A stretch of 64,000 nt of DNA from Anoxybacteroides voinovskiense (GTDB taxonomy: Bacteria; Bacillota; Bacilli; Bacillales; Anoxybacillaceae): contig NZ_JACIDE010000016.1 of assembly GCF_014196205.1 (NCBI RefSeq), positions 1 to 64,000 on the forward strand. Direction: 5' to 3'. Every line of letters begins with the position of its first letter. The first letter of the stretch is position 1. The notes under the pieces are model-generated. The model was not told the DNA's origin. It did not search any database and was given only the letters and a program-made list of their open reading frames with translations. The position numbers were made by a program, and so were the translations under genes. This document shows, one piece after another, positions 25,191 to 45,702 of the stretch.

Positions 25191-25343
25191 ACCGAGAACA
25201 CTCGTGATTTTAATCATGAGATGAATCGGCTTCAGACGAAGCGTGTCTTTTGATACGTCAATTGTCCGACATATGTTGACTTATTAAGCAACAAAGGCGC
25301 TGATATCAATAACTCCCGCGACAAAAATTTGTAGATTTTTATC

Positions 25344-25373
25344 AACACTTTCTCCATACTTTTTCTTTATTCT
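25344..25373 (+). promoter_or_regulatory. Direct-repeat promoter, site 1
   Basis: Repeats AACACTTTCTC (25344) and CATACTTTTTC (25355) 11 bp apart, with -10 TATTCT (25368-25373) starting 13 bp after the second repeat. The surrounding 59 bp nearly duplicates the promoter at 28869-28927. It drives the decayed gene at 25395. Confidence 0.65.
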
Positions 25374-25394
25374 AAAATCACAGTAAGAAAGGGG

Positions 25395-27990: not shown

Positions 27991-28020
27991 CATAAATTCT
28001 GCAAATTTATCCTATAAAAT
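27991..28020 (+). promoter_or_regulatory. Direct-repeat promoter, site 2
   Basis: CATAAATTCTG (27991) and CAAATTTATCC (28002) 11 bp apart, -10 TAAAAT (28015-28020) 13 bp after the second repeat start. It points toward the truncated ORF at 28039; the divergent YVTN gene lies on the other side. Confidence 0.62.
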
Positions 28021-28038: not shown

Positions 28039-28227
28039 TTGTGGAATAAGAAGGGAAAAGTGTTGTGGGAGCGGGTTTCGGGTGTGCAATTTGGTCCTGG
28101 TATAGGGGAGGAGACAAAATTTCCAGGGAATGTTGGTCATCATTCTTCTGATCATCATTCCATCAAGAAATCACAGGAGCAGATTACACAATTACAGGCA
28201 GACAATGAACGCTTTGCGGGCAAATGA
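28039..28227 (+). pseudogene. ORF truncated by a repeat element
   Basis: The frame runs GHHSSDHHSIKKSQEQITQL and then crosses into element sequence at 28202, ending on repeat-derived codons. Another frame starts with a hydrophobic stretch (VVGAGFGCAIWSWYRGG), so an ancestral short membrane protein with a His-rich, coiled-coil tail may have been frameshifted and cut. Parent family not recognised. Confidence 0.35.
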
Positions 28228-28332
28228 TATTTGCCCGCTGGCGTTCTTGTTCGAGGGAAGAGGCAGGAAAGCTTGTGTTCAGTCAAATGATTCTGTGTTT
28301 TTTAGTAAAACAATGGATAATCAACACTCGTG
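28202..28332 (+). repeat. Right half of the 247-bp inverted-repeat element
   Basis: Starts inside the large hairpin arm (ACAATGAACGC) and runs to a complete right terminal repeat (TGGATAATCAACACTCGTG, 28314-28332). The left half is missing, so it is a deletion derivative. Confidence 0.8.
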
Positions 28333-28402
28333 ATATTATTATTAAGTTTTACATACAACTAAGTGGAATAGCATACAAAAATATGTTGGAGAAAGGTAGT
28401 TG

Positions 28403-28792: not shown

Positions 28793-28893
28793 ACAGTTGC
28801 TGAAAATATACAAATAGGCTGATACTATGACGTGGCGAGCGGACAGTTTAATGTAAAGAGATAATCGGCGACAAAAATTTGTAACGTTTAATG

Positions 28894-28923
28894 AACACTT
28901 TCTCCATACTTTTTCTTTATTCT
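28894..28923 (+). promoter_or_regulatory. Direct-repeat promoter, site 3
   Basis: AACACTTTCTC (28894) and CATACTTTTTC (28905), -10 TATTCT (28918-28923). It is upstream of the Met-rich secreted protein. Confidence 0.7.
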
Positions 28924-28954
28924 AAAACTAGAAAAGGATGGAGGTGTTGAAAAA

Positions 28955-29212
28955 ATGAAAAAATTTATTTCAGGTTTGCTTGTATTTGTTTCGGCTATTG
29001 GGTTAGCCACAGCTGTTTTTGCAGCAAGTGATAGTAATAGTTGGGGAAAAATGTTGCCGTTAATGAAACAAATGCATCCAAATTTCTCAGAAGAACAATT
29101 ACAAAAAATGTATGAGCAGTGCCGAAATACTAAAAATATGGATCAAATGATGGAACATATGATGAATAATGGCAAAATGAATCAACAGATGAAACAAGGG
29201 TATATGATGTGA
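28955..29212 (+). CDS. Small secreted Met-rich protein
   Basis: An 85-residue exported protein: signal peptide ending AVFAA, then a helical core MLPLMKQMHPNFSEEQLQKM with one cysteine (YEQC), and a Met/Asn/Gln/His tail (MMEHMMNNGKMNQQMKQGYM). The tail suits Cu(I) binding outside the cell. Related short proteins in Bacillus are annotated only loosely. GGATGGAGGTG precedes the ATG. A decayed copy with the same promoter lies at 25395. Confidence 0.75.
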   Translation: MKKFISGLLVFVSAIGLATAVFAASDSNSWGKMLPLMKQMHPNFSEEQLQKMYEQCRNTKNMDQMMEHMMNNGKMNQQMKQGYMM

Positions 29213-29317: not shown

Positions 29318-29347
29318 CATCGATTCTGCAAATTTATGTTGTAAAAT
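29318..29347 (+). promoter_or_regulatory. Direct-repeat promoter, site 4
   Basis: CATCGATTCTG (29318) and CAAATTTATGT (29329), -10 TAAAAT (29342-29347). It drives the GTG start at 29389, which matches a sensor kinase start. Confidence 0.65.
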
Positions 29348-29388
29348 AAAAAGCACTCATAATGGGCTCTCATAAGGAAGGGACAAAC

Positions 29389-31519
29389 GTGCGAAAACTT
29401 TCATTTAGCACAGAACCCGGTTATGTAGCCGCTACGCAAGAAATTGCGGTCAAACCGAATGTGGCATACACATTCAGTGGAAAAATCAAAACCCATTTAA
29501 CGAAAGCCCGTGCGTTCTTTAATGTTGAATTTTTAGATAGCCAAAATCGCCGAATTGCTTGGGTAGACAATCGCTATAGCCAATTGACGGGCACAAGACC
29601 TTGGACGGATCGACAACTGACCTTTAAGACGCCTGCGAATGTGGTGAAAGTGCGCATCTATTTAGAGGTCGAGCATCAATCACCAACCGCATTAGGGGAA
29701 GCATGGTTTGATAATGTTCAATTAGAGGAAGCCCAAGTTTCTTCCAGCTATAATCCAGTGTTAAACAGCAGCTTCGAAGGAAGCGTGACGAATTGGAGCG
29801 GAACGGGCGGAAGCGTCGATCATACGGAATCGTTCGACGGGGCTTACTCTCGCAAAATATCGAGAACCAGCACCACACAATCAGCTAGTGAATATAAGCA
29901 GACGGTGATCGTAGGGCAAGCTTCAAGTGATACGCCGCTTCGTCTGACACTCACAGGTCTTTCCAAAGCGCAGGATGTCAAAGCCAATGGTACCGTGAGT
30001 GCAAGCGATTATTCCATTACCGCGAAAGTGTATTTTGTAGACGGAACGACTCAAACGTATATGGCTGATTTTTCGATCGGCACGCAAGATTGGAACCGTG
30101 CCGCCGTTTCGATTCAACCTTCCAAGCCAATGGATAAAATCGACATATCCGCTGTCTTCCGCGGAAACTATACAGGAACGGTCTGGTTTGACGCCATTCG
30201 CTTGATGGAAGGCAACGTCATAACGAAAAACAAGTATGACGCCAATGGCAACTATGTGGAGGAAGAAACAGATGAAGCCGGGTATGTCACGAAAAAGAAC
30301 TATGATGCCGTAGGAAATCTGTTGAGCGAATACGATGAGAAGGGAAATCAAAAACAGTACAAGTATGACCCATCCAATCGTTTAAAACAACTCCTATTGG
30401 CGAACGGAACGTCTGTCAACTATGATTATGACTTGAACGGTAACATGACTTCTAAAGTCATTCAAACGAGCAGCGGTCCGTCACAAAGATTTACCTATTC
30501 TTATGATAAGACGGGAAAACTTCTGAAAACGGTCGGTCCGCTTAACGATGTGACAACCAATGAATATGATGCGAACGGCAATAAAATTAAAACCGTCTTA
30601 CCGAAAGGAAATACAATTCAATGGATGTACGACGAAACGGAACGGGTCGACACGATTTCTTACAATGGAGTTCCGTATTACGAATTCCGTTACGACAAAA
30701 ACGGAAACGAACTGTCTGTGCAATATGTAAAGGATGGCACGACGAAAACAAGAAAATTTGACTCGGCGAATTCGGGTCATCGAACAGTCCGACCGCGGGG
30801 GATTACAAAAATGGACGTATCCGACCACCTCGGATAAATTGCAACAGTTCCTATTCTCGCACGGATCGTTTAGTCAAACGATTACGTACCAATACAACGC
30901 CTTGGACCAAAATACCATCGTTCAAGACGAAGCGTATACGTATCGCTTTGACTATGACGAGAGAGGACACGTTCGCACGTTTACGACTGGAAACGGAGCG
31001 GGAGCCACCTTCACGTATGATGACCGCGGCTTGGTGAAAAGTCTGTCAGTGGGGACGGCAGATGGAACCGAGTTATTGGCGGAAACGTACCGTTATGACG
31101 AAAACGGCAATCGGACGAAAATCGAGTCCCCGACAGGAGAAGCGATCGTTTACCGTTACGATGCGCTCGATCAACTAGTGGAAGAGCAATGGCCGGATGG
31201 AACGACGATCGCGTATACGTACGATGGATTCGGGAATCGGAAGCAAATCGTGGAAACGAAAGATGGGCAGTCGACGACGACCACAGCTGATTATCATGCG
31301 GCGAATCAATTGGTTCGTTTCGGCGATGAAACGATCACGTACGATGCGAACGGCAACCGGACCGAAGACGGTGAGTACCAATATGAATGGAACGAAGCCG
31401 ACCAGCTTGTCGCTATCCCTCGAAAAGGCGAAAGCACGCCGTTTGTGACGTACCAATACGATGAAGACGGCCGCCACATTCACAAGACCGTGAATGGCGT
31501 CATAAAAATGATCGGATGA
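29389..31519 (+). pseudogene. RHS/YD-repeat fragment fused to a kinase start, frameshifted
   Basis: GTG 29389 begins MRKLSFS, matching the first codons of the kinase at 32500 (MRKLSFK) with a similar ribosome site. It then switches to an RHS/WapA-type sequence: a carbohydrate-binding-like part (NPVLNSSFEGSVTNWSGTGG) and many YD repeats (YDANGNYVEEETDEAG, YRYDENGNRTKIESPTG). Register changes near 30770: the first frame ends at 30837 while homology continues from KFDSAN into RVIEQSDRGGLQKW in another frame to 31519. The C-terminal RHS core end and toxin are missing. It is therefore a chimeric, frameshifted and truncated gene; the frameshift could also be a sequencing error. Confidence 0.8.
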
Positions 31520-32437: not shown

Positions 32438-32468
32438 CACATTTTCTCCACATTTTTTCTGCTATAAT
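32438..32468 (+). promoter_or_regulatory. Direct-repeat promoter, site 5 (kinase/regulator operon)
   Basis: CACATTTTCTC (32438) and CACATTTTTTC (32449), almost identical 11-mers, -10 TATAAT (32463-32468) 14 bp after the second repeat start. It lies 32 bp before the kinase start, so the two-component operon probably controls itself. Confidence 0.75.
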
Positions 32469-32499: not shown

Positions 32500-33903
32500 G
32501 TGCGAAAACTTTCGTTTAAGTTAGGACTATTATTTTTTGTCTTTGTGCTAGGAATCGAAACGGTGTTATTTGCGTCGTTGTATGTGACGCTTGTGAACGC
32601 GAGAATTAATGAAGAATTTGAGCAGTTGTTGGCAAGAGGGAATAATCATCGGGATGTATTGGAAAAAAGCTATCATCTTTCTACGTTAGAACATGTCGTG
32701 ATGATGGAGTCGGAAGCAGAAACGGATGTCGTCATTACCGATGCGAACGGGAATATTTTATATTTTTCTGATCACATTTTGCCGTTTGCAAAAAAACTCA
32801 TTCCGTCTGTCGATGTTCGCCACATTTCTCATAGCGGGATGGTCGTACAAAACAACTGGAAAAAACAACCGTATATCGCCACCGCCAGCCCGATTCGGAT
32901 GGACGGAGAGATAAAAGGGTATGTGTACATGTTTCAGCGGACAGCTTCCATTCAAAATATGATTTCTAAATTAAAACATCATTTTCTTGTTGTTGGGATT
33001 GTTTCTGTCTTTTTGACGATTATGACGATTTTTTTCTTATCAAGAGTCATTACGATTCCGCTCATTCGGATGAAACAAGCGACCGAAAAATTGAGCAAGG
33101 GGGACTTTTCTGTCCGCCTGCAAGTAAAAGGAGAAGATGAGTTGGCACAGTTAGGAAAAGCGATTCAAACACTTGCGGCCGATTTGGAATATTTGAAAAA
33201 AGAACGAAACGAATTTTTAGCGAGCATTTCACACGAGTTGCGCACACCGCTTACATATGTGAAAGGATATGCCGACATTGCGCGCAGACCGAATATAGCC
33301 GAAGAAGAACGAGCAAAATATTTGTCCATTATTTATGAAGAAGCAGAGCATATGCAAAAATTAGTGAAAGACTTGTTTGAGCTCGCGAAAATGGATCAAC
33401 ATTCGTTTCAAATCAAGAAAGAGCCAACCCCACTGTGCCTTTTTTTGAAAAAAATATACGAGAAAATGTATCCTGCTTTTCAGACGAAAAATATGTCTCT
33501 TGTCTACCGCTGCGAGGAAAACATTGCCGTCCATATCGATCAACAGCGTTTTGAGCAAGTGATGATGAATCTTTTGGACAATGCGTTAAAATATTCTCAT
33601 CAAGGTTCTACCGTTTCCATTGATGTAAGAATGGAGAAAAAGAACGTGATGATCATGATTTCCGACGAAGGAGTCGGCATTCCCGAAAAAGATTTGCCGC
33701 ATATTTTTGAACGATTTTATAGGGTGGATAAATCAAGATCGAGAACAGGCGGAGGGACTGGACTCGGGTTGGCGATTGTGAAAGAAATTGTCGAAGCGCA
33801 CGGTGGTTCGATTTACGCAACGAGCCAATTCGGAAAAGGGACAAACATGATCATTACATTGCCGAGGGGGGATGAAGGTGTACACGATATTACTAGTGGA
33901 TGA
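32500..33903 (+). CDS. Sensor histidine kinase (HAMP type)
   Basis: A 467-residue membrane kinase: TM1 (about 8-30), an extracytoplasmic sensor of about 130 residues (ANGNILYFSDHILPF), TM2 (about 165-187), HAMP, then the dimerisation helix with SISHELRTPLTY (phospho-His245) and the ATPase domain (NLLDNALKYS N-box, DEGVGIPEKD G1, GGGTGLGLAIVKEI G2). It starts at GTG 32500 after AAGGAAGG. It overlaps the regulator gene. By its regulon and neighbours I infer it senses copper or envelope redox stress; no ligand motif proves this. Confidence 0.88.
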   Translation: MRKLSFKLGLLFFVFVLGIETVLFASLYVTLVNARINEEFEQLLARGNNHRDVLEKSYHLSTLEHVVMMESEAETDVVITDANGNILYFSDHILPFAKKLIPSVDVRHISHSGMVVQNNWKKQPYIATASPIRMDGEIKGYVYMFQRTASIQNMISKLKHHFLVVGIVSVFLTIMTIFFLSRVITIPLIRMKQATEKLSKGDFSVRLQVKGEDELAQLGKAIQTLAADLEYLKKERNEFLASISHELRTPLTYVKGYADIARRPNIAEEERAKYLSIIYEEAEHMQKLVKDLFELAKMDQHSFQIKKEPTPLCLFLKKIYEKMYPAFQTKNMSLVYRCEENIAVHIDQQRFEQVMMNLLDNALKYSHQGSTVSIDVRMEKKNVMIMISDEGVGIPEKDLPHIFERFYRVDKSRSRTGGGTGLGLAIVKEIVEAHGGSIYATSQFGKGTNMIITLPRGDEGVHDITSG

Positions 33904-34549
33904 CGAAAAACGAATGTTGGATTTATTAGAGCTGTATCTTACCCCGAATGGATACCGTTGTGTCAAATGCGAGTCAGGAGTAGCGGCGATTCGCTATTTA
34001 GAAAATAATAAAGCAGACCTTGTGTTGCTTGATGTCATGATGCCAGAGATGGACGGATGGGAAACGTGCAAACAAATACGAGAGTTTTCGAATGTCCCAA
34101 TTATTATGGTTACCGCAAGAGATGCAACGACAGATGTTGTTCAAGGACTAAAAATCGGTGCAGATGATTATATTACAAAACCGTTTGACGAATCCGAATT
34201 GCTCGCTCGGATCGAAGCGGTATTGCGCCGTTCGGTCGGAAAACAAACGAAACTGGAGTTTCACGGCTTAGTTTGGGATGAAGCGCAGCATAAAGTCCAA
34301 TATGCAGGGCACGATATTTTTCTCACGCCAAAAGAGTTTGCCATTTTAGGACTTTTTCTCAAACATCCAAACCGAGTATTTAGCCGAGAGCAACTCATCG
34401 TGACATTATGGGGGTATAACGCCAATACAGAAGAACGGACCATCGATTCGCATGTGAAAAATATTCGCGAAAAGCTCCGCCAGGCTGGTTTTCCGATTGA
34501 TCAGTTTCTGCAAACCGTTTGGGGAGTAGGATATAAATGGGAGGCATAA
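33878..34549 (+). CDS. OmpR/PhoB-family response regulator
   Basis: About 223 residues: receiver domain with VDDEKRM, phospho-acceptor Asp52 in LLDVMMPEMDG, Thr in MVTARD and Lys in ITKPFD, then a winged helix (FLTPKEFAILGLFLKHPNRVFSREQL, RTIDSHVKNIREKL). GTG 33878 sits six bases after GAGGGGGG; the in-frame ATG at 33872 touches that site. The gene overlaps the kinase 3' end by 26 bases; the kinase-first order is the less usual one. It is the best candidate to bind the nine direct-repeat promoters of this island, since this family binds 10-11-bp direct repeats near -35. Confidence 0.88.
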   Translation: MYTILLVDDEKRMLDLLELYLTPNGYRCVKCESGVAAIRYLENNKADLVLLDVMMPEMDGWETCKQIREFSNVPIIMVTARDATTDVVQGLKIGADDYITKPFDESELLARIEAVLRRSVGKQTKLEFHGLVWDEAQHKVQYAGHDIFLTPKEFAILGLFLKHPNRVFSREQLIVTLWGYNANTEERTIDSHVKNIREKLRQAGFPIDQFLQTVWGVGYKWEA

Positions 34550-36184: not shown

Positions 36185-36214
36185 CACAATTTCTGCAAAA
36201 TTCACTGCTACAAT
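36185..36214 (+). promoter_or_regulatory. Direct-repeat promoter, site 6
   Basis: CACAATTTCTG (36185) and CAAAATTCACT (36196), -10 TACAAT (36209-36214). It is 36 bp upstream of the CcdA-like gene. Confidence 0.65.
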
Positions 36215-36249
36215 ATAAGCATCAGATAAAGAAGAAGGTGAGAAGAAGG

Positions 36250-36978
36250 GTGTATTCGTTCTTGAGTCAAATCAGTAACTTTCTAAGTCAACCGTTTCTC
36301 AATATGGCAAATAGCATGACAGCGATTCCTATTTTGTCAGCCTTTCTTCTTGGCATCGTGGGAGCGATGGCTCCGTGTCAACTCACTGGTAATTTAGGAG
36401 CGATCACATTATACAGTAATCAGTCTTTGCAAAAAGGAATGGCTTGGAAAGAGTTGCTTTTATTTATTTTCGGTAAAATCGTTGCTTTTTCCGGTTTAGG
36501 CTTGATTGTCTGGCTCATGGGGAAAGAGATTCAAAGTACGCTAACATTGTATTTTCCGTGGTTAAGAAAGCTCATTGGTCCCATTCTCATTCTTGTAGGC
36601 TTATATTTGTTAGGGCTTTTTAAAATGTATTGGAACGTTACCTTGTTCAAAGTGCCTGAGAGATGGCGAAAAGGAAAAATCGGTTCGTTTTTCATGGGAT
36701 TTGGCTTTTCATTAGCTTTTTGTCCAACGATGTTTGTGCTGTTTTTTGTCACTCTCATGCCTCTCGTCTATTCAACGTCTTATGGGGTGCTATTACCGAG
36801 CATCTTTGCCGTTGGAACTTCTGTACCTGTTATTTTCTTTATCTTTGTCCTTTGGTACTTAGGATTTAGCGGCACTCTGATGAAAAAAGGAAGGCAGGTA
36901 GGGGGGATTGTTCAAAAAACAGCCGGAATCGTGCTGGTTTCACTTGGTATATTAGATACGATCACTTATTGGTTTTAA
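36250..36978 (+). CDS. CcdA/DsbD-like thiol membrane transporter
   Basis: About 242 residues with six helices and the two-cysteine layout of CcdA/UreH-type proteins: Cys43 in GAMAPCQLTGNLGA (first helix) and Cys158 in LAFCPTMF (fourth helix). Such pairs pass reducing power across the membrane to thioredoxin-like proteins outside; some relatives move metals. GTG 36250 gives better ribosome spacing than the in-frame GTG at 36238. It is followed by a SHOCT protein. Together with the TlpA fusion and CcdA it suggests a thiol-reducing relay. Confidence 0.72.
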   Translation: MYSFLSQISNFLSQPFLNMANSMTAIPILSAFLLGIVGAMAPCQLTGNLGAITLYSNQSLQKGMAWKELLLFIFGKIVAFSGLGLIVWLMGKEIQSTLTLYFPWLRKLIGPILILVGLYLLGLFKMYWNVTLFKVPERWRKGKIGSFFMGFGFSLAFCPTMFVLFFVTLMPLVYSTSYGVLLPSIFAVGTSVPVIFFIFVLWYLGFSGTLMKKGRQVGGIVQKTAGIVLVSLGILDTITYWF

Positions 36979-37296: not shown

Positions 37297-37552
37297 CATG
37301 CGTGTTGATTAACCAATAAAAACAAGTTGACATCACCCTATTCCTAGCTTTTCTGCCGTAGTCGGCTAAGCTAGCTTGCCGACTGGGCATGCTGTACGCA
37401 TGCCCTCCTCGAACAATGAACGCTTTGCGGGCAAATGACATTTGCCCGCCGGCGTTCTTGTTCGAGGGAAGAGGCAGAAAAGCTTGTGTTCAGCCATATG
37501 ATTCTGTGTTTTTTAGTAAAATAGTGGATAATCAACACTCGTGTCTTTTTAT
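37288..37552 (+). mobile_element. Complete 247-bp inverted-repeat element (MITE-like), copy A
   Basis: Terminal inverted repeats CATGCGTGTTGATTAACCA (37297-37315) and TGGATAATCAACACTCGTG (37525-37543) flanked by a 9-bp target duplication TCTTTTTAT (37288-37296, 37544-37552). It has no gene inside. The interior folds as an outer stem (AGCTTTTCTGCC with GGCAGAAAAGCT) enclosing hairpin arms, including a large one centred on GCGGGCAAATG-A-CATTTGCCCGC. It needs a transposase from elsewhere. Confidence 0.88.
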
Positions 37553-37555
37553 CTC

Positions 37556-37585
37556 CATAATAAATTCATATTTTTTCTTTATAAT
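37556..37585 (+). promoter_or_regulatory. Direct-repeat promoter, site 8
   Basis: CATAATAAATT (37556) and CATATTTTTTC (37567), -10 TATAAT (37580-37585). It starts three bases after the target duplication of element A and drives the TlpA fusion. Confidence 0.65.
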
Positions 37586-37619: not shown

Positions 37620-38858
37620 TTGCAATTCGGCAATATTGTAGTTCAAGGCGAAAATCTTTTGCTCGTAAGCGGCTTACTGATTAGTTATGTCATGTTTTAT
37701 TACGGTATTAAGATATTAAAAATAGAACGAAACATCATGGATTTAATTTTGAACAGTTTTATTAACGGTGTACTCATTTGGAAATTTAGTTATGTCGTTT
37801 TACATCCGAATTCAGTTTTACAAAATCCGATGACAATCCTTTATTTTAACGGGGGATATGTTGGCATTAGTATGGCGATTGTTTTTATCACCATCTATAC
37901 TTGGTTATACGTAAAAAAGCAAAATATTCCTGTGGCTTCTTATACGCGGGCAATGGTTCCAGTATATTTTGGCTATTTTAGTACTTTTGCATCGATCCGG
38001 GTAATGGAAAATTCAGAAAATTATTTCATCATTTTGCAAGCAATAGTAGCGATTTGTTTTTTTATAGTAGCATCACGAGTCAAAACTCAAAAAACTTTAT
38101 TGCACCTTCTTATATGGTTCCATCTCATCCAATTCGAACTAGCCTTGTATAAAAAATATTTTGTAAATACAGTAATCATATCAAAAGAAGTGTGGTTGTA
38201 TGGCTCTCTCGTTATCGCTTTTATATGTATTTCATATTGGTTAGAGAGGCGAGAAAGAGAAGTGGTTCTTGAGGAAGGGAATAAAGGACGGAGAAATGCA
38301 ATCAATCAACTCGCTTTAGGTGTGATGATGGCAAGTATTGCTGTAGCTTCTATTTTTAACAATCAACAGGAAGCAGGAAAGATCAAACCAAAGCCGACCG
38401 TGTCTACTTCATTGGATTCGGAAAAAATCGGAACGAATAAAGGAGAAGTTGCCCCGGATTTTGAATTACTTTCAATTACAGGGGATAAAATAAAATTGTT
38501 TGATTTGCGTGGAAAAACGGTGATATTGAATTTTTGGGCTACTTGGTGTCCCCCTTGCAGAGCTGAAATGCCAGAAATGCAAAAGTTCTACGAAAACAAT
38601 AAAAATAACAATGTAGAAATTTTGGCAGTCAACTTAACGAATAGCGAACGAGGTCCTGATGCGGTGAACGATTTTGTGAAAAATAAGGGAGTGACATTTA
38701 AAGTTGTTCTTGATGAGCAAGGGGAAATTGGAAATCTATACGGTGCAATAACGATCCCCACTTCGTATATCATCGATAAAAACGGGGTTATTAGAGATAA
38801 GTATATAGGTCCTATGTCTTATGAAACGATGGATCGCATGATCTCGAATATTCAATAA
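37620..38858 (+). CDS. Polytopic membrane protein fused to a TlpA/ResA thioredoxin
   Basis: A 412-residue fusion. Residues about 1-235 contain seven to eight membrane helices, with a weak Lgt-like look (LYFNGGYVGISMAIVF). A linker and one more helix lead to an extracytoplasmic TlpA/ResA domain (about 275-412): APDFELLSITGDKIKLFDLRG, NFWATWCPPC with Cys310 and Cys313, and the cis-Pro loop AITIPTSYIID. It should reduce disulfides outside the membrane, fed by CcdA. TTG 37620 follows GGAGGG by seven bases; a longer in-frame extension lies inside element A and is not coding. The first module is not identified with confidence. Confidence 0.78.
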   Translation: MQFGNIVVQGENLLLVSGLLISYVMFYYGIKILKIERNIMDLILNSFINGVLIWKFSYVVLHPNSVLQNPMTILYFNGGYVGISMAIVFITIYTWLYVKKQNIPVASYTRAMVPVYFGYFSTFASIRVMENSENYFIILQAIVAICFFIVASRVKTQKTLLHLLIWFHLIQFELALYKKYFVNTVIISKEVWLYGSLVIAFICISYWLERREREVVLEEGNKGRRNAINQLALGVMMASIAVASIFNNQQEAGKIKPKPTVSTSLDSEKIGTNKGEVAPDFELLSITGDKIKLFDLRGKTVILNFWATWCPPCRAEMPEMQKFYENNKNNNVEILAVNLTNSERGPDAVNDFVKNKGVTFKVVLDEQGEIGNLYGAITIPTSYIIDKNGVIRDKYIGPMSYETMDRMISNIQ

Positions 38859-38935: not shown

Positions 38936-39643
38936 TTAAAAACCTGTGAACCCACCAAACAAACCTGTAAAAAAGATAATGATCTTTGTCATCCAATCAA
39001 AAAACAGCATAATTCCCATGATAATCATAAGAACTCCTCCGACTTTGACGATGACAGCGTTGTATCTTTTTATCCAATTCAACTTGCTGATAAAAAATGA
39101 CATGATGAAAAAAGGCACGGCAAACCCTAATACATATGCGAACATGTACAACATGGCTGCACTCGGTTTGGTAGCGGCTAACGCGATCACTGATACAAGA
39201 ATTGGACCTGTGCAGGGAGTCCAGCCCGCTGCGAATCCTATTCCGATTAAAATAGAGCCAAAATAACCGGAAGGCTTGTTGCGGAAAACTAACCGTTTAT
39301 CTTTCATCATAAAGGAAGGTGAAAATACACCTAAAATGACGAGACCAAAAAAGATAATGAACAAGGCGCTAATTTGTCTGATTAAATCTTGGTAATTAAC
39401 GAATAATTTTCCTATTACAGAAGTCCCAAAACCAATAGCGATGAAGATGACGGAAAAACCGAGCAAGAAAAAGAATGTATGGAGTATTGCGCGTTTTTGA
39501 AGCATCCCATTCTCTTTCTTTATTTCATCAACGGATACTCCAGTAATGTAAGATAAAAAAGCTGGATATAGTGGTAAACAACAAGGGGATATAAAAGACA
39601 GCAATCCCGCTCCGAAAGCTAGAAATACATTGATATCGTTCAT
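38936..39643 (-). CDS. ccdA: Cytochrome c biogenesis protein CcdA
   Basis: A 235-residue, six-helix protein with [19 protein letters not shown] in the first helix and [18 protein letters not shown] in the fourth, each carrying the redox cysteine of CcdA/DsbD. It carries electrons from cytoplasmic thioredoxin to extracytoplasmic TlpA/ResA proteins, here most likely the convergent TlpA fusion. The ATG at 39643 has GAGAGGAT upstream and a direct-repeat promoter of the island regulon. Confidence 0.93.
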
Positions 39644-39679: not shown

Positions 39680-39709
39680 ACTGTAAAATAAAATTGTGAA
39701 TTTTTTGTG
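39680..39709 (-). promoter_or_regulatory. Direct-repeat promoter, site 7
   Basis: On the minus strand CACAAAAAATT (from 39709) and CACAATTTTAT (from 39698), -10 TACAGT (39685-39680), leading to ccdA. Confidence 0.6.
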
Positions 39710-39778: not shown

Positions 39779-39807
39779 TTGCGTTTCATACCCATTACCG
39801 GTATAAT
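39779..39807 (+). promoter_or_regulatory. CsoR-type promoter/operator
   Basis: -35 TTGCGT (39779-39784), 17-bp spacer, -10 TATAAT (39802-39807). Between and overlapping them is ATACCCATTACCGGTAT (39788-39804), a GC-cored inverted repeat like known CsoR operators. It controls csoR-copA-copZ and differs from the direct-repeat promoters around it. Confidence 0.75.
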
Positions 39808-39829: not shown

Positions 39830-40141
39830 ATGAACCATTGTGAAGATCAACATATGGATAAAAAAATGGTTCCACGAACGGAACAGGAAATCGAAAGCAT
39901 TATTAAGCGCTTGAAGCGCATTGAAGGACAAGTGCGCGGGGTGCAAAAAATGGTCGAAGACAATCGGTATTGCATCGATATTTTAGTGCAAATCTCTGCA
40001 ATCACGGCCGCGTTAAATAAAGTCGGATTGAGTTTGTTAGAACGCCATGTCAGCCATTGTGTGTCGAAAGCGATCCGCGAAGGAAGCGGAGAAGAATCCA
40101 TTCGTGAGCTAATGGAGGTCATTAATCAATTTTCGAAGTAA
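39830..40141 (+). CDS. csoR: Copper-sensing repressor CsoR
   Basis: A 103-residue all-helical CsoR/RcnR-type repressor: [26 protein letters not shown] and [14 protein letters not shown] supply the Cys-His-Cys Cu(I) site. Cu(I) releases it from DNA and allows copA-copZ expression. ATG 39830 follows an AAGGGGTGATG ribosome region. It lies 14 bases upstream of copA, under a CsoR-type operator. Confidence 0.93.
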
Positions 40142-40155
40142 GGGAGGGGAAATGG

Positions 40156-42543
40156 ATGCGAACGGTGACACTGAAGGTGACCGGCATGACATGTGCCGCC
40201 TGTTCTGCCCGCATTGAAAAAGTGTTGAATAAAATGGACGGTGTAGAAGCAACGGTCAATTTAGCGATGGAAAAAGCGACCGTTCAATACGACCCGAATA
40301 AATATAGCCTTGCCGATATTGAAGCGAAAATTGAAAAGTTAGGGTATGGCGTTGCGACAGAAAAAGTGACGCTCGATATTGAAGGCATGACATGTGCGGC
40401 ATGTGCGACACGGATTGAAAAAGGATTGCATCGGATGGAGGGCGTGACAAGCGCTACGGTGAATTTAGCGACAAACAGTGCGGTGGTCGAATATAAAGAA
40501 GGCGTAACGTCGGTCGAAGACATTTTAGAGAAAATCAAAAAGCTTGGGTACAAAGGGCAAATTCGAAACGAAGAACAAGACGATGCTGGCCGGAAAGAAG
40601 AGCGGCTTAAACAAAAACAACGGCAACTCGCCATTTCCATCATCTTATCGTTGCCGCTACTTTATACGATGGTTGCCCATATGCCGTTTGATATAGGCTT
40701 GCCGATGCCGCATTTGCTGATGAATCCGTGGTTCCAGCTTCTTTTAGCTACACCGGTTCAGTTCTACATCGGCGGTCCTTTCTATGTCGGGGCGTACCGG
40801 GCGTTACGAAATAAGAGCGCGAACATGGACGTCCTAGTGGCGCTTGGAACATCGGCCGCGTACTTTTACAGCTTGTACGAAGCTTTTCGGACACTTGGGA
40901 ATCCTGAATATATGCCAAGATTATATTTTGAAACGAGTGCCGTCTTGATTACGCTTGTGCTTGTCGGAAAATACTTTGAGGCTCTTGCGAAAGGGCGAAC
41001 AACAGAAGCGATTTCAAAGCTACTTAGCCTGCAGGCAAAAGAAGCTACTGTCATTCGTAATGGGGAAGAAATAAAAGTTCCGCTCGAAGAAGTGATGATC
41101 GGGGATACGATTATTGTTAAGCCAGGAGAAAAAATCCCGGTAGACGGTACTGTCATCGCCGGAGCATCTTCCGTAGACGAATCGATGATTACCGGTGAAT
41201 CGATTCCGGTTGATAAGAAGGAAGGCGACTATGTGATCGGGGCAACCATCAATACAAATGGTGTGCTGACCATTCGCGCAGAAAAAGTAGGGAAAGATAC
41301 AGCACTCGCCAATATCATTAAAATCGTCGAAGAGGCGCAAGGTTCGAAAGCTCCGATTCAGCGAATGGCCGATGTCATCTCAGGTATTTTCGTACCGATT
41401 GTTGTAGGAATTGCTATCGTTGCATTCATTATATGGTACTTCTTTGTTGCGCCGGGTGATTTGGCAAAAGCGCTTGAAGTGGCCATCGCCGTTCTCGTCA
41501 TTGCGTGTCCTTGTGCGCTCGGTCTTGCCACGCCGACATCGATTATGGTCGGTACAGGCAAAGGGGCAGAACAAGGGATTCTCTTTAAAGGAGGTGAGTA
41601 CCTAGAGGGAACGCATAAAATCAACGCGGTCTTACTCGATAAAACAGGAACAGTGACAAAAGGAAAACCGGAAGTGACAGATGTGTTACAATTCCAAGAA
41701 AACATGCTTGACTATGCCGTTTCAGCCGAGAGCGCTTCGGAACATCCGTTGGCTCATGCGATTGTCGAATACGGGAAGAAACAAGCGATTTCGATGAAGC
41801 CATTGGAGCACTTCTCCGCCATTACCGGCCACGGAATTGAAGCTGTCATTGACGGAAAAAGCATCCTTATTGGAACGCGAAAATTGATGAAGGAACGCTC
41901 TGTAGCGATTTCTGTGCATGAAGATAAAATGGTAGAGCTTGAAAAACAAGGGAAAACAGTGATGCTCGTTGCCATCGATGGACAGCTTGCCGGCATCATT
42001 GCTGTCGCGGATACAGTAAAAGAAAGCTCCAAAGAAGCGATTCAAACATTAAAACAAATGGGCATCGACGTGTATATGGTAACGGGAGACAACAAACGAA
42101 CAGCCGAAGCAATCGCGAAACAAGTCAGCATTGAACACGTATACTCGGAAGTGCTTCCAGAAGACAAAGCGAACATCGTGGAGGATTTGCAAAAACAAGG
42201 AAAACGAGTCGCGATGGTCGGCGATGGCATTAACGACGCTCCAGCTCTTGCGAAAGCGGATATTGGGATGGCGATTGGCACAGGAGCAGATGTCGCGATC
42301 GAAACGGCCGATGTTACCTTGGTCGGCGGGGATTTAGCGCATATCCCGAAAGCGATTGAGTTAAGCCGCAAAACAATGAAAAACATTCGGCAAAATCTGT
42401 TCTGGGCGTTGTTCTATAATACAGTTGGCATTCCTGTAGCCGCTCTCGGATTATTGGAACCATGGATCGCTGGGGCAGCGATGGCATTTAGCTCTGTATC
42501 CGTTGTGACAAACGCGCTTCGTTTGAAACGCGTGAAAATATAA
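40156..42543 (+). CDS. copA: Copper-exporting P1B-ATPase CopA
   Basis: A 795-residue copper pump. Two N-terminal heavy-metal domains have CAAC motifs (Cys13/16 and Cys80/83). The membrane metal site is CPC (Cys451, Cys453) and the phosphorylated Asp495 is in [13 protein letters not shown] (nucleotide binding), [10 protein letters not shown] and a C-terminal pair of helices complete the family pattern. It exports Cu(I) from the cytoplasm. GGAGGGGAAATG gives a clear start. It is coupled with csoR and copZ. Confidence 0.95.
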
Positions 42544-42561: not shown

Positions 42562-42768
42562 ATGATGACGATTACATTACAAGTACAAGGAATGACATGC
42601 GGACATTGCAAAGCAGCGGTGACGAACGCCCTTCAAGCATTGGATGGCGTTAGCCGTGTAGAGGTGCATTTGCAAGAAGGTACGGTCGATGTCGAGTATG
42701 ATGAAACAAAGGTTAGCGTAGAAAAAATGAAAGAAGCGATTGAAGAGCAAGGATATGATGTGAAGTAA
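42562..42768 (+). CDS. copZ: Copper chaperone CopZ
   Basis: A 68-residue single HMA domain with GMTCGHCKAAVTNAL; the CxxC cysteines bind Cu(I) for delivery to CopA. Two adjacent ATGs (42562, 42565) follow AGGAGGA. Third gene of the csoR-copA-copZ unit. Confidence 0.95.
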   Translation: MMTITLQVQGMTCGHCKAAVTNALQALDGVSRVEVHLQEGTVDVEYDETKVSVEKMKEAIEEQGYDVK

Positions 42769-42812: not shown

Positions 42813-42883
42813 TAGCGCAAATTTTTTTTCACCGAGATGTTATAATGAAAATAGCAGATACGAAGAAAAAGGTGGTGATTCAT

Positions 42884-43189
42884 TTGTTATCACAACAAGA
42901 CATACTTCGTGAAATGTCAAAAAATTTAGATATATGGAGCAAAAAGTATGGCGTAAAGCGAATCGGGTTATTTGGTTCGTACAGTCGTGGAGAACAAAGG
43001 GAATCGAGTGACATTGATGTGTTAGTAGAATTTATGGATGATGCAGTGACGTTTGATCATTATATGGAGTTGAAACTGAGTTTGGAAGATCATTTTCAAA
43101 AACCGGTAGATTTAGTGATTGTAGATGATATTAAGCCGGCATTAAAGCCAATTATTTTAAGGAGTGCTAAGTATGCAGAGAGAGCCTAG
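42884..43189 (+). CDS. MNT-domain nucleotidyltransferase antitoxin (MntA-like)
   Basis: A 101-residue minimal nucleotidyltransferase: GLFGSYSRGEQRESSDIDVLVEF has the GSX10DXD catalytic motif and VDLVIVDD the third acidic position. In MNT/HEPN pairs this protein AMPylates and silences the HEPN toxin. I chose TTG 42884 because GGTGGTG lies just upstream; ATG 42845 overlaps the likely -10 (TATAAT). It overlaps the HEPN gene by 17 bases. Confidence 0.85.
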   Translation: MLSQQDILREMSKNLDIWSKKYGVKRIGLFGSYSRGEQRESSDIDVLVEFMDDAVTFDHYMELKLSLEDHFQKPVDLVIVDDIKPALKPIILRSAKYAERA

Positions 43190-43517
43190 TGTTTTTTTAC
43201 AAGACATTTTGGTCGCTGCAGAAAAAATTGAGAAGTACACCCAAGGGCTTTCTTATGATGACTTTCTAGATAATGACTTAATATCAGATGCGGTCATTAA
43301 AAACATATTAGTAATCGGAGAAGCAGCAAAAAACATTCCAAACGAAATGAGACAGGCATCCCCACATATCGAATGGAGAAAGATGGCTGGCATGAGGGAT
43401 ATGATGATTCACGGTTATTTCTCTATTAATTACCGAATTGTTTGGGATGTTGTCCAAAATAAAATCCCTAAGCTAAAGCAACATATTAAGCAATTGCTAA
43501 ATGAGAGAGAGATTTAA
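43173..43517 (+). CDS. HEPN-domain RNase toxin (HepT-like)
   Basis: A 114-residue HEPN protein with the helical pattern and GMRDMMIHGYFSINYRIVW, holding the RX4-6H active motif (RDMMIH) and the Tyr next to it that is the AMPylation target in HepT. AAGGAG lies eight bases before ATG 43173. It pairs with the MNT antitoxin. The pair sits between the copper ATPase unit and the multicopper oxidase. Confidence 0.87.
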   Translation: MQREPSVFLQDILVAAEKIEKYTQGLSYDDFLDNDLISDAVIKNILVIGEAAKNIPNEMRQASPHIEWRKMAGMRDMMIHGYFSINYRIVWDVVQNKIPKLKQHIKQLLNEREI

Positions 43518-43556: not shown

Positions 43557-45095
43557 TTATTCTCCCTTATTCATTGTATCATTCGGATCTGGCGTATAGC
43601 TTGATTTGTAGTCTTTGTATTTTAGTTCGGTGACCATTCCCGCTGAAGCGTGATGCAAGTCGTGGCAATGGAACATCCAATTTCCTGGATTATCTGCTTG
43701 AAATGCGACAACATATTCTTCACCCGGATTTATATTTAACGTATCTTTAATCAATGGAGCGCCTGTGACTGGCTTCCCGTTTTTGCTTAATACTTGGAAG
43801 AAATGTCCGTGTAAATGCATCGGGTGTATATCCATCGGTGAATGGTTCACGAATTTTACTTTGACGAGATCGCCTTTTTTCACGTTGATTGGCGCTGTGT
43901 CAGGATACGTTTTCCCATTAATCGTGAAAATCATCCCATTTTTCCCCATCGCCGTTCCTAAATCCATCGTGTACTCTACATCATATTTTTGGTCTAACGT
44001 AAATGGACCTGTCTCATATTTTCCGTATTTTTCAATATCTACCACAGGGAGATTTTCTTTTGCGTTCGCTTTGTCCGTATTGTTTGCTTGTCCTTCGTAT
44101 TGAATGTTCACTTTCATGCCATCGGTGCCTTTCATATCGCCGTGGCATTCCAGCAGCCATTCACCCGGGTTATTCGCGATAAACTCAATGTCGTAGCGCT
44201 CACCTGGAGCGATATTTAACAATTCGTCTTTGATTGGTTGTGGGCTGTTGATCGGCTGACCATCCGTTGCGACAATTTGAAACTTATGTCCGTGCAAATG
44301 AAGCTTGTGGGACATGTACCCTGCGTTAATTAGGCGAAGCCGTATTTTTTCCCCTTTTTTCACTTTTAAAGGCTCAATGGCTGTTCCGCTTTTTCCGTTA
44401 ATCGTGAAAATATCGTACATATTCATGTTATGTCCCATGCTGTTCATATCCATATTGCCATGATCCATGCCGCTCATATTCATGTTCATATTGCTTTCTG
44501 CGTTCGGATCGCTCATCCATTCGTCTAACACAAGCGTATAGTCTCGATCGACTTTTTCCTCATTTTTCGGTTCAACGATTAATGTACCGTATAATCCTTT
44601 GTCCACTTGCTCGGCGCTTTTTTGATGCGAATGATACCAATACGTTCCAGGTACGGTTGCCGTAAATTCATACGTAAACGTTTCCCCTGGTTTAATGGCG
44701 TTCATCGTAGCGCCTGGAACCCCATCTTGACTATTTGGAACAGGATAGCCGTGCCAATGAATCGCTGTCGGCTCAGGTAATTCGTTTTTAAAAACAATTT
44801 TTACGCGATCCCCTTGTTTTACGCGGATTTGCGCACCGGGTACCGATCCATTATACGTGTATACCGGGAGTTTGACTTGATCGTTAATTTGTAATAATGC
44901 TTCCTTCGCGGTAAGGTGAATCTCTTTCCCAGATAGCGATTCTGTAGCGGTTGCCAAAGGCAAATTCTCTTTATTGGAAGTAGTTTCTTTTTTCTTATGC
45001 ATGTTGGACATATCGTGTCCTTGCATCGTATTGGAGCAAGCTGCACTAATCGCAACCACTCCTGCTAAAACAATTCCTAACCATAATTTCTTCAT
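43557..45095 (-). CDS. Multicopper oxidase (CopA/CueO-like), exported lipoprotein
   Basis: A 512-residue three-cupredoxin oxidase with a signal ending in a lipobox-like SAAC. Copper motifs are complete: HWHG, HSHQ, HPMHLHGHFF and HCHDLHHASAGM (type 1/type 3 ligands with axial Met). A Met/His/Asn-rich insertion (MNMNMSGMDHGNMDMNSMGH) resembles the Cu(I)-binding inserts of CueO. It probably oxidises Cu(I) to less toxic Cu(II) outside the membrane. ATG 45095 follows GGAGGG. Its promoter carries direct-repeat site 9. Confidence 0.92.
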   Translation of the reverse strand: MKKLWLGIVLAGVVAISAACSNTMQGHDMSNMHKKKETTSNKENLPLATATESLSGKEIHLTAKEALLQINDQVKLPVYTYNGSVPGAQIRVKQGDRVKIVFKNELPEPTAIHWHGYPVPNSQDGVPGATMNAIKPGETFTYEFTATVPGTYWYHSHQKSAEQVDKGLYGTLIVEPKNEEKVDRDYTLVLDEWMSDPNAESNMNMNMSGMDHGNMDMNSMGHNMNMYDIFTINGKSGTAIEPLKVKKGEKIRLRLINAGYMSHKLHLHGHKFQIVATDGQPINSPQPIKDELLNIAPGERYDIEFIANNPGEWLLECHGDMKGTDGMKVNIQYEGQANNTDKANAKENLPVVDIEKYGKYETGPFTLDQKYDVEYTMDLGTAMGKNGMIFTINGKTYPDTAPINVKKGDLVKVKFVNHSPMDIHPMHLHGHFFQVLSKNGKPVTGAPLIKDTLNINPGEEYVVAFQADNPGNWMFHCHDLHHASAGMVTELKYKDYKSSYTPDPNDTMNKGE

Positions 45096-45128
45096 CGCTT
45101 TCCCTCCATCCACTTGTATCGTACCATC

Positions 45129-45158
45129 ATTATAAAAAAGAAATGTGCAAAATGTATG
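45129..45158 (-). promoter_or_regulatory. Direct-repeat promoter, site 9 (multicopper oxidase)
   Basis: On the minus strand CATACATTTTG (from 45158) and CACATTTCTTT (from 45147), -10 TATAAT (45134-45129) 13 bp after the second repeat start. DNA at 45159-45436 holds no supported gene; a 71-codon frame there lacks a ribosome site. Confidence 0.68.
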
Positions 45159-45436: not shown

Positions 45437-45702
45437 AACTTTTATCACGAGTGTTGATTATCCAATATTTTACTAAAAACACAGAATCATTTGACTGAAC
45501 ACAAGCTTTTCTGCCTCTTCCCTCGAACAAGAACGCCGGCGGGCAAATGTCATTTGCCCGCAAAGCGTTCATTGTTCGAGGAGAGCATGCGTACAGCATG
45601 CCCAGTCGGCAAGCGAACCGCTTGCCGACTACGGCAGAAAAGCTAGGAATAGAGCGATTTCAACTGGTTTTTAATGGTTAATCAACACGCCTGAACTTTT
45701 AT
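45437..45702 (-). mobile_element. Complete 248-bp inverted-repeat element, copy B (inverted)
   Basis: Ends CACGAGTGTTGATTATCCA (45446-45464) and TGGTTAATCAACACGCCTG (45675-45693), flanked by a 9-bp duplication AACTTTTAT (45437-45445, 45694-45702). Interior arms GTCGGCAAGCG/CGCTTGCCGAC, GCATGCGTACAGCATGC and the large GCGGGCAAATG hairpin match copy A in reverse. It lies 20 bases upstream of the MFS gene. Confidence 0.88.

Follow-up and report, generated by a model that had tools for sequence, protein, structure and literature searches.

Which regulator controls the multicopper oxidase (MCO) gene that lies next to a csoR-copA-copZ unit in Anoxybacteroides voinovskiense, a heat-loving relative of Bacillus? 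Accounts of how Bacillaceae respond to copper usually name CsoR-CopZA and YcnK. The locus was analyzed within the first 64,000 nt of contig NZ_JACIDE010000016.1 (assembly GCF_014196205.1, genome of 3.23 Mb), here called the window. Sequence comparisons indicate that the MCO gene very probably belongs to the regulon of an envelope copper two-component system of the LcoRS type, separate from the CsoR circuit. The oxidase gene and the CsoR unit are located as follows.

43557–45095, minus strand: MCO, a predicted lipoprotein with three Pfam Cu-oxidase domains
39788–39804, plus strand: CsoR-type operator ATACCCATTACCGGTAT, which overlaps the –10 element of csoR and is conserved before csoR in relatives
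39830–40141, plus strand: csoR (Pfam Trns_repr_metal); the Cys, His and Cys ligands of its product are spaced as in copper CsoRs
40156–42543, plus strand: copA, copper P-type ATPase (open reading frame with two GMTCAAC metal-binding motifs)
42562–42768, plus strand: copZ, copper chaperone (open reading frame with a GMTCGHC motif)

Read from its ATG, the MCO has 512 residues. The reading frame with a GTG start begins 18 bp further upstream and encodes 518 residues, which is longer than needed. The lipobox ISAAC and the Met/His-rich insert MNMNMSGMDHGNMDMNSM can be read from the sequence. The region between copZ and the MCO gene (42845–43517) is occupied by a nucleotidyltransferase/HepT-like (MNT-HEPN) pair of the toxin-antitoxin type.

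The spacing of the metal ligands in CsoR (Cys-x24-His-x3-Cys, from the sequence) is the same as that of C41, H66 and C70, the ligands of Staphylococcus aureus CsoR (PMC6191537). The operator at 39788–39804 is the sole exact match to ATACC-N7-GGTAT in the window and the sole match in the genome at up to two mismatches. No such operator was found upstream of the MCO gene, either in the window search or in the genome search with up to two mismatches.

The MCO promoter carries the direct repeat CATACATTTTG-CACATTTC, which ends in TATAAT; the layout on the minus strand is CATACATTTTG, CACATTTCTTTTT and TATAAT. The two units are 11 bp apart and the second one begins 13 bp before the perfect TATAAT, about 34 bp from the ATG. 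This site is the best of nine similar sites, all of them within 25.3–45.2 kb. By-eye alignment of the promoters of the neighborhood gave a common architecture: a unit like CAYAWWTTNTB is repeated after exactly 11 bp and followed by a TANANT –10 element. The second unit begins 13 bp before the –10 element; in the promoter of the kinase operon this distance is 14 bp. All nine sites are listed below with the evidence for each.

25344–25373, plus strand: direct-repeat promoter before a disrupted gene, a 92% copy of the promoter region at 28.9 kb (matrix, pattern)
27991–28020, plus strand: direct-repeat site with no clear downstream gene (matrix, pattern)
28894–28923, plus strand: direct-repeat promoter of a gene for a Met-rich small secreted protein, 28955–29212 (matrix, pattern)
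29318–29347, plus strand: direct-repeat site followed by a truncated kinase start (sequence, matrix)
32438–32468, plus strand: direct-repeat promoter of the kinase-regulator operon, with 14 bp instead of 13 bp from repeat to –10 (sequence, matrix match)
36185–36214, plus strand: direct-repeat promoter of a DsbD_2-family gene, 36238–36978 (matrix, pattern)
37556–37585, plus strand: direct-repeat promoter of a TlpA/ResA-like gene, 37620–38858 (matrix, pattern)
39680–39709, minus strand: direct-repeat promoter of a CcdA-like gene, 38936–39643 (matrix, pattern)
45129–45158, minus strand: MCO promoter, 11-bp direct repeat and TATAAT, site 9 of the original prediction (leave-one-out score, conservation in the family)

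Several of these sites lie in duplicated or rearranged DNA. The promoter stretches 25318–25377 and 28868–28927 are 92% identical; the copy at 28.9 kb precedes the intact Met-rich secreted protein and the one at 25.3 kb an apparently frame-disrupted version of it. The perfect site at 27991–28020 is identical in four relatives (G001, G002, G009 and G013), where the surrounding 131 bp are 90–93% conserved. The stretch 29318–29390 has a kinase promoter followed by the start of a second kinase copy (its first few codons, GTGCGAAAACTTTCATTTAG), which continues into an RHS-like open reading frame (29362–30837). Judged by its sequence, the sensor operon was duplicated here and the copy is truncated. 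The 30 bp of the site at 29318–29347 also precede the kinase in L180 and L182 without a single difference, and several relatives have two kinase copies. Three near-identical, inverted-repeat-like intergenic elements (GCGGGCAAATGACATTTGCCCGC, TTGTTCGAGGGAAGAGGCAGAAAAGCTTGTGTTCAG) are found in the cluster at 28190–28335, 37300–37545 and 45445–45690, possibly a small non-autonomous mobile element.

Under a weight matrix built without it, the MCO site scores 27.8 bits, which is equalled only by its sister sites; the best non-site in the 64 kb reaches about 15 bits with the full matrix. A degenerate pattern of the repeat has eight matches in the window, while 0.09 are expected from shuffled sequence. 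In the whole genome (3.23 Mb) it has 12 matches, eight of which are in the cluster, and the reversed pattern used as a control has five. As the pattern was read off the window sites themselves, the independent evidence consists of the leave-one-out score and of the relatives described below. The best –35-like hexamer of the MCO promoter, CATACA, matches at three of six positions and is located within the repeat. The repeat covers the –35 region, and the promoters of this set have no good –35 element.

A perfect –10 element in an AT-rich region might also belong to an unregulated sigma-A promoter in which phased AT-rich tracts mimic a repeat by chance. The shuffle test (0.09 expected, eight observed), the lack of a good –35 element and the occurrence of the repeat at the same place in distant families all speak against such a coincidence, which has a close to negligible probability and was rejected on the basis of the leave-one-out score and the shuffle test. 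Thus, the original prediction that the MCO promoter combines a direct repeat with a consensus TATAAT and has no CsoR operator is borne out.

The system that most likely acts on these repeats is encoded within the same cluster.

32500–33903, plus strand: sensor histidine kinase of the LcoS type (HAMP, HisKA and HATPase_c domains)
33872–34549, plus strand: OmpR/PhoB-family response regulator of the LcoR type (Response_reg and Trans_reg_C domains)

The kinase is 42% identical to LcoS over 455 residues (E value 5e-131), the external sensor domain included, and the regulator is 56% identical to LcoR over 220 residues. With general family models, the pair scores as generic WalK/PhoB-like, and the NCBI cut-offs of the heavy-metal CusRS/CopRS models TIGR01386 and TIGR01387 are missed (206 versus 292.55 bits and 160.5 versus 279.2 bits). 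The regulator consists of a receiver and a winged-helix domain (Pfam) as in the OmpR/PhoB family, and the 11-bp spacing of the repeat is preferred in distant loci.

The external domain of the kinase is predicted to be a sensor of the PDC type (pLDDT 92). Foldseek places WalK and CitA-type sensors nearest, and CusS (5ku5) is among the matches at a lower rank. Across 63 kinases, residues H50, H65, M69 and E70 do not vary. In the predicted structure, the first helix bears H50 close to its end and the second bears H65 and M69, one turn apart; H50, H65 and M69 may form a Cu(I) site.

The same two-component system could control the MCO in response to a different signal, either thiol or redox stress of the envelope or another soft metal such as silver. 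The thiol-disulfide proteins of the regulon (DsbD_2, CcdA and TlpA) and the general PDC type of the modeled external fold would agree with this. However, copper resistance is reported for the homologous LcoRS, copper islands and Met/His-rich targets are found repeatedly in different families, and the external domain has the invariant His and Met residues. A signal other than copper is hence rather unlikely.

Conservation of the repeat was inspected in 41 genomes of the family. Allowing one mismatch, the pattern has about 147 matches versus one for the control. The 36 genomes with the kinase have about 4.0 sites each, compared with 0.6 in the five genomes without it. These five also have no full MCO, and one site in this set (G029) adjoins a broken MCO gene and copZ. 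Within the family, 30 full-length MCO orthologues were inspected and none lacks the repeat, which was found from upstream regions in 28 of them and by the pattern search in two (L047, L070; G012:C152, G011:C4). The MCO gene is linked with copper-resistance genes in the window cluster and in 40 relatives.

The kinase and the MCO also co-occur across 348 genomes of the order (70/85/22/171, odds ratio 6.4, p ~1e-12) and often adjoin. The islands share MCO, kinase, regulator, BNR (F510_1955), DsbD_2, CcdA and TlpA genes and often csoR-copA-copZ. With the matrix from the window, 18 of 30 MCO upstream regions from loci of other families pass at the 11-bp spacing, as against 4–11 at other spacings. 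About one third of the distant loci have an MCO gene without a site of its own, and in some of them the MCO gene is downstream of another gene.

A reciprocal comparison of promoters was carried out in 80 named loci from Anoxybacillus to Salinicoccus and Macrococcoides for those genes whose upstream region could be read. The repeat was scored as present at 15 bits or more; the chance per upstream region is about 0.015, which is an upper bound because true sites are included. It precedes the MCO in 15 of 19 cases, TlpA in 5 of 5, BNR in 20 of 32, DsbD_2 in 18 of 34 and CcdA in 7 of 14, and csoR in none of the 13 upstream regions read. The CsoR-type operator shows the reverse distribution: it is present before 10 of 13 csoR genes, and none was found in the 19 MCO upstream regions. 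The csoR-copA-copZ unit is thus preceded by a CsoR-type operator as predicted in the window, and so are most csoR genes of the relatives. In the window, the intergenic region between csoR and ccdA contains a repeat facing ccdA and the operator facing csoR. Therefore, both types of control stand back to back in this region.

Precedent for control by CsoR comes from S. aureus, in which mco is CsoR-controlled through the upstream copB promoter (PMC6191537). This mobile copB-mco operon resembles the locus described here in being a Bacillales copper operon with an MCO and differs from it by its CsoR control. Since CsoR operators differ between species, CsoR might act on the A. voinovskiense MCO indirectly or by way of an operator unlike ATACC-N7-GGTAT. 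Yet the MCO gene has its own promoter and is convergent with copZ and csoR-copA, and the operator is confined to csoR in the reciprocal comparison; control by CsoR is accordingly very improbable.

A further possibility is that the repeats are bound by a different OmpR-family regulator, such as PhoP, ResD or WalR, in place of the neighboring system. Direct repeats with an 11-bp period are general for this family, and 9 of 20 MCO promoters still have the repeat in genomes without an LcoS-type sensor. A strict dependence of the repeat on this sensor is thus unsupported. On the other hand, eight of the 12 pattern matches in the 3.2-Mb genome are in the copper cluster, the number of sites tracks the presence of the kinase, and the kinase operon has a site of its own. 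Furthermore, in most of the repeat-positive loci without the sensor, a regulator that has diverged further lies close to the MCO, so that the repeat is not strictly tied to an LcoS-type kinase. A different OmpR-family regulator is therefore very improbable, and control by the neighboring LcoRS-type pair is preferred. The recognition helices of motif-positive regulators end in REK or RDK and those of most motif-negative ones in RTK or RLK; this difference is only suggestive, because G109a breaks the rule. In one GTDB family (f14: L275, L280, L282, L286, L287, L289 and L292), the repeat is found before the MCO (e.g. CACAGTTTCCCCACATTTATACGCTACACT) and no LcoS-type kinase is present, possibly because the sensor was exchanged while the regulator site was conserved.

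Among described systems, LcoRS comes closest in kind, within the wider class of PhoB-type copper regulators. LcoRS-LcoABC is encoded on the Lactococcus lactis plasmids pNZ712 and pND306. The set on pNZ712 was named lcoRSABC, lcoRS is stated to regulate lcoABC, and a strain bearing pNZ712 grows at up to 4 mM CuSO4 (PMC5152845). Both proteins are homologous to the window pair over their full length, LcoS has the same external His/His/Met/Glu residues, and in pNZ712, too, an MCO is linked to the kinase-regulator pair. The top matrix match in the lco region of pNZ712, CACAAGTTCTGCAAATTCGTTAGATATAAT, scores 20.6 bits versus 12.4 for the next one. It has the 11/13 spacing of the window sites and is located upstream of the lgt-DUF2933-CHAP-MCO genes as a putative target site. 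Unlike in the window, the order is regulator-kinase, the MCO follows the lgt, DUF2933 and CHAP genes, a single matching site is seen, and neither a CsoR unit nor a Dsb/TlpA cluster adjoins. Between the MCOs of pNZ712 and the window, identity is only 31%. Full lgt genes occupy places in the lactococcal and enterococcal copper islands comparable to that of the TlpA/ResA-like gene (37620–38858), and the N-terminal region of its product is weakly similar to prolipoprotein diacylglyceryl transferase.

In Corynebacterium glutamicum, CopRS likewise provides copper two-component control beside a cytosolic csoR/ctpV unit. CopR binds the direct repeat TGAAGATTT-N2-TGAAGATTT, which also has an 11-bp period (PMC3140484). 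The half-site is a different one and occurs at one site in the genome; the likeness is drawn from the description of that system. The sensor loop of CopS is much shorter and has no CinS/CusS histidines (PMC3140484). For the tcrYAZB/cueO island of Enterococcus, cusRS was predicted in 2015 to regulate cueO (PMC4511184). There, too, an MCO adjoins a two-component pair and the MCO region has repeat-like matches, but the kinase aligns with the window kinase in the catalytic core only (31%) and the cytosolic circuit is the CopY-type TcrY instead of CsoR.

Escherichia coli shows a comparable split between an envelope two-component system (CusRS) and a cytosolic sensor (CueR), and the CusS domain is among the fold matches. 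The E. coli oxidase CueO, however, is under CueR, which is the opposite of the arrangement in the window. Together, the reciprocal promoters of MCO and csoR in relatives and the LcoRS homology of the neighboring pair give good support to the original prediction of two copper circuits side by side. Its claim that such a split has no described counterpart in Bacillaceae stands, as no copper two-component system of this family was found in the literature searched (with thin coverage of subscription journals), but it does not extend to Gram-positive bacteria at large. As LcoRS and Corynebacterium CopRS are Gram-positive precedents, the novelty lies only in the occurrence within Bacillaceae and in how broad the regulon is.

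From these comparisons, we infer that copper is the signal of the kinase, that the regulator binds the repeats and activates, that copper is liganded by the external residues and that the MCO is independent of CsoR. The PDC-like external domain of the kinase (32500–33903) would sense excess extracytoplasmic copper, for which His50, His65 and Met69 are the probable ligands, and the kinase would phosphorylate the PhoB-type regulator (33872–34549). A regulator dimer would then bind the two 11-bp half-sites, which would stand in for the –35 element of promoters whose –10 is good and whose –35 is poor. Activation by a dimer is proposed because the repeat covers the –35 region of promoters without a good –35 element. 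In the PhoB family, the regulator dimer at pho boxes activates and recruits RNA polymerase. The bound regulator would recruit the polymerase in the same way and switch on the oxidase, the thiol-disulfide enzymes, the Met-rich secreted protein and its own operon. CsoR would separately repress only csoR-copA-copZ and be released when cytosolic Cu(I) binds.

What the locus offers is a second circuit that is specific and testable: its defined target site can be looked for in any genome, its external sensor has candidate copper ligands, and its target genes tie copper stress at the surface to disulfide repair. In addition, it connects uncharacterized chromosomal islands in numerous genera with a plasmid system of Lactococcus whose function in copper resistance has been described. 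The balance tips slightly in favor of an envelope copper regulon throughout the Bacillales, with an LcoRS-type system and one 11-bp repeat, that operates alongside the CsoR circuit and never shares promoters with it. If so, this regulon would bring the oxidation of copper and its Met-rich binding together with thiol-disulfide repair, and spore-formers and related bacteria would rely on it as their main response to extracytoplasmic copper. It would have been overlooked because work on Bacillus subtilis centers on CsoR and YcnK. Plasmid pBM69 of Bacillus methanolicus MGA3 (L269) carries an island from kinase to MCO with repeat promoters and without csoR-copA, which suggests that the regulon is able to move as a unit.
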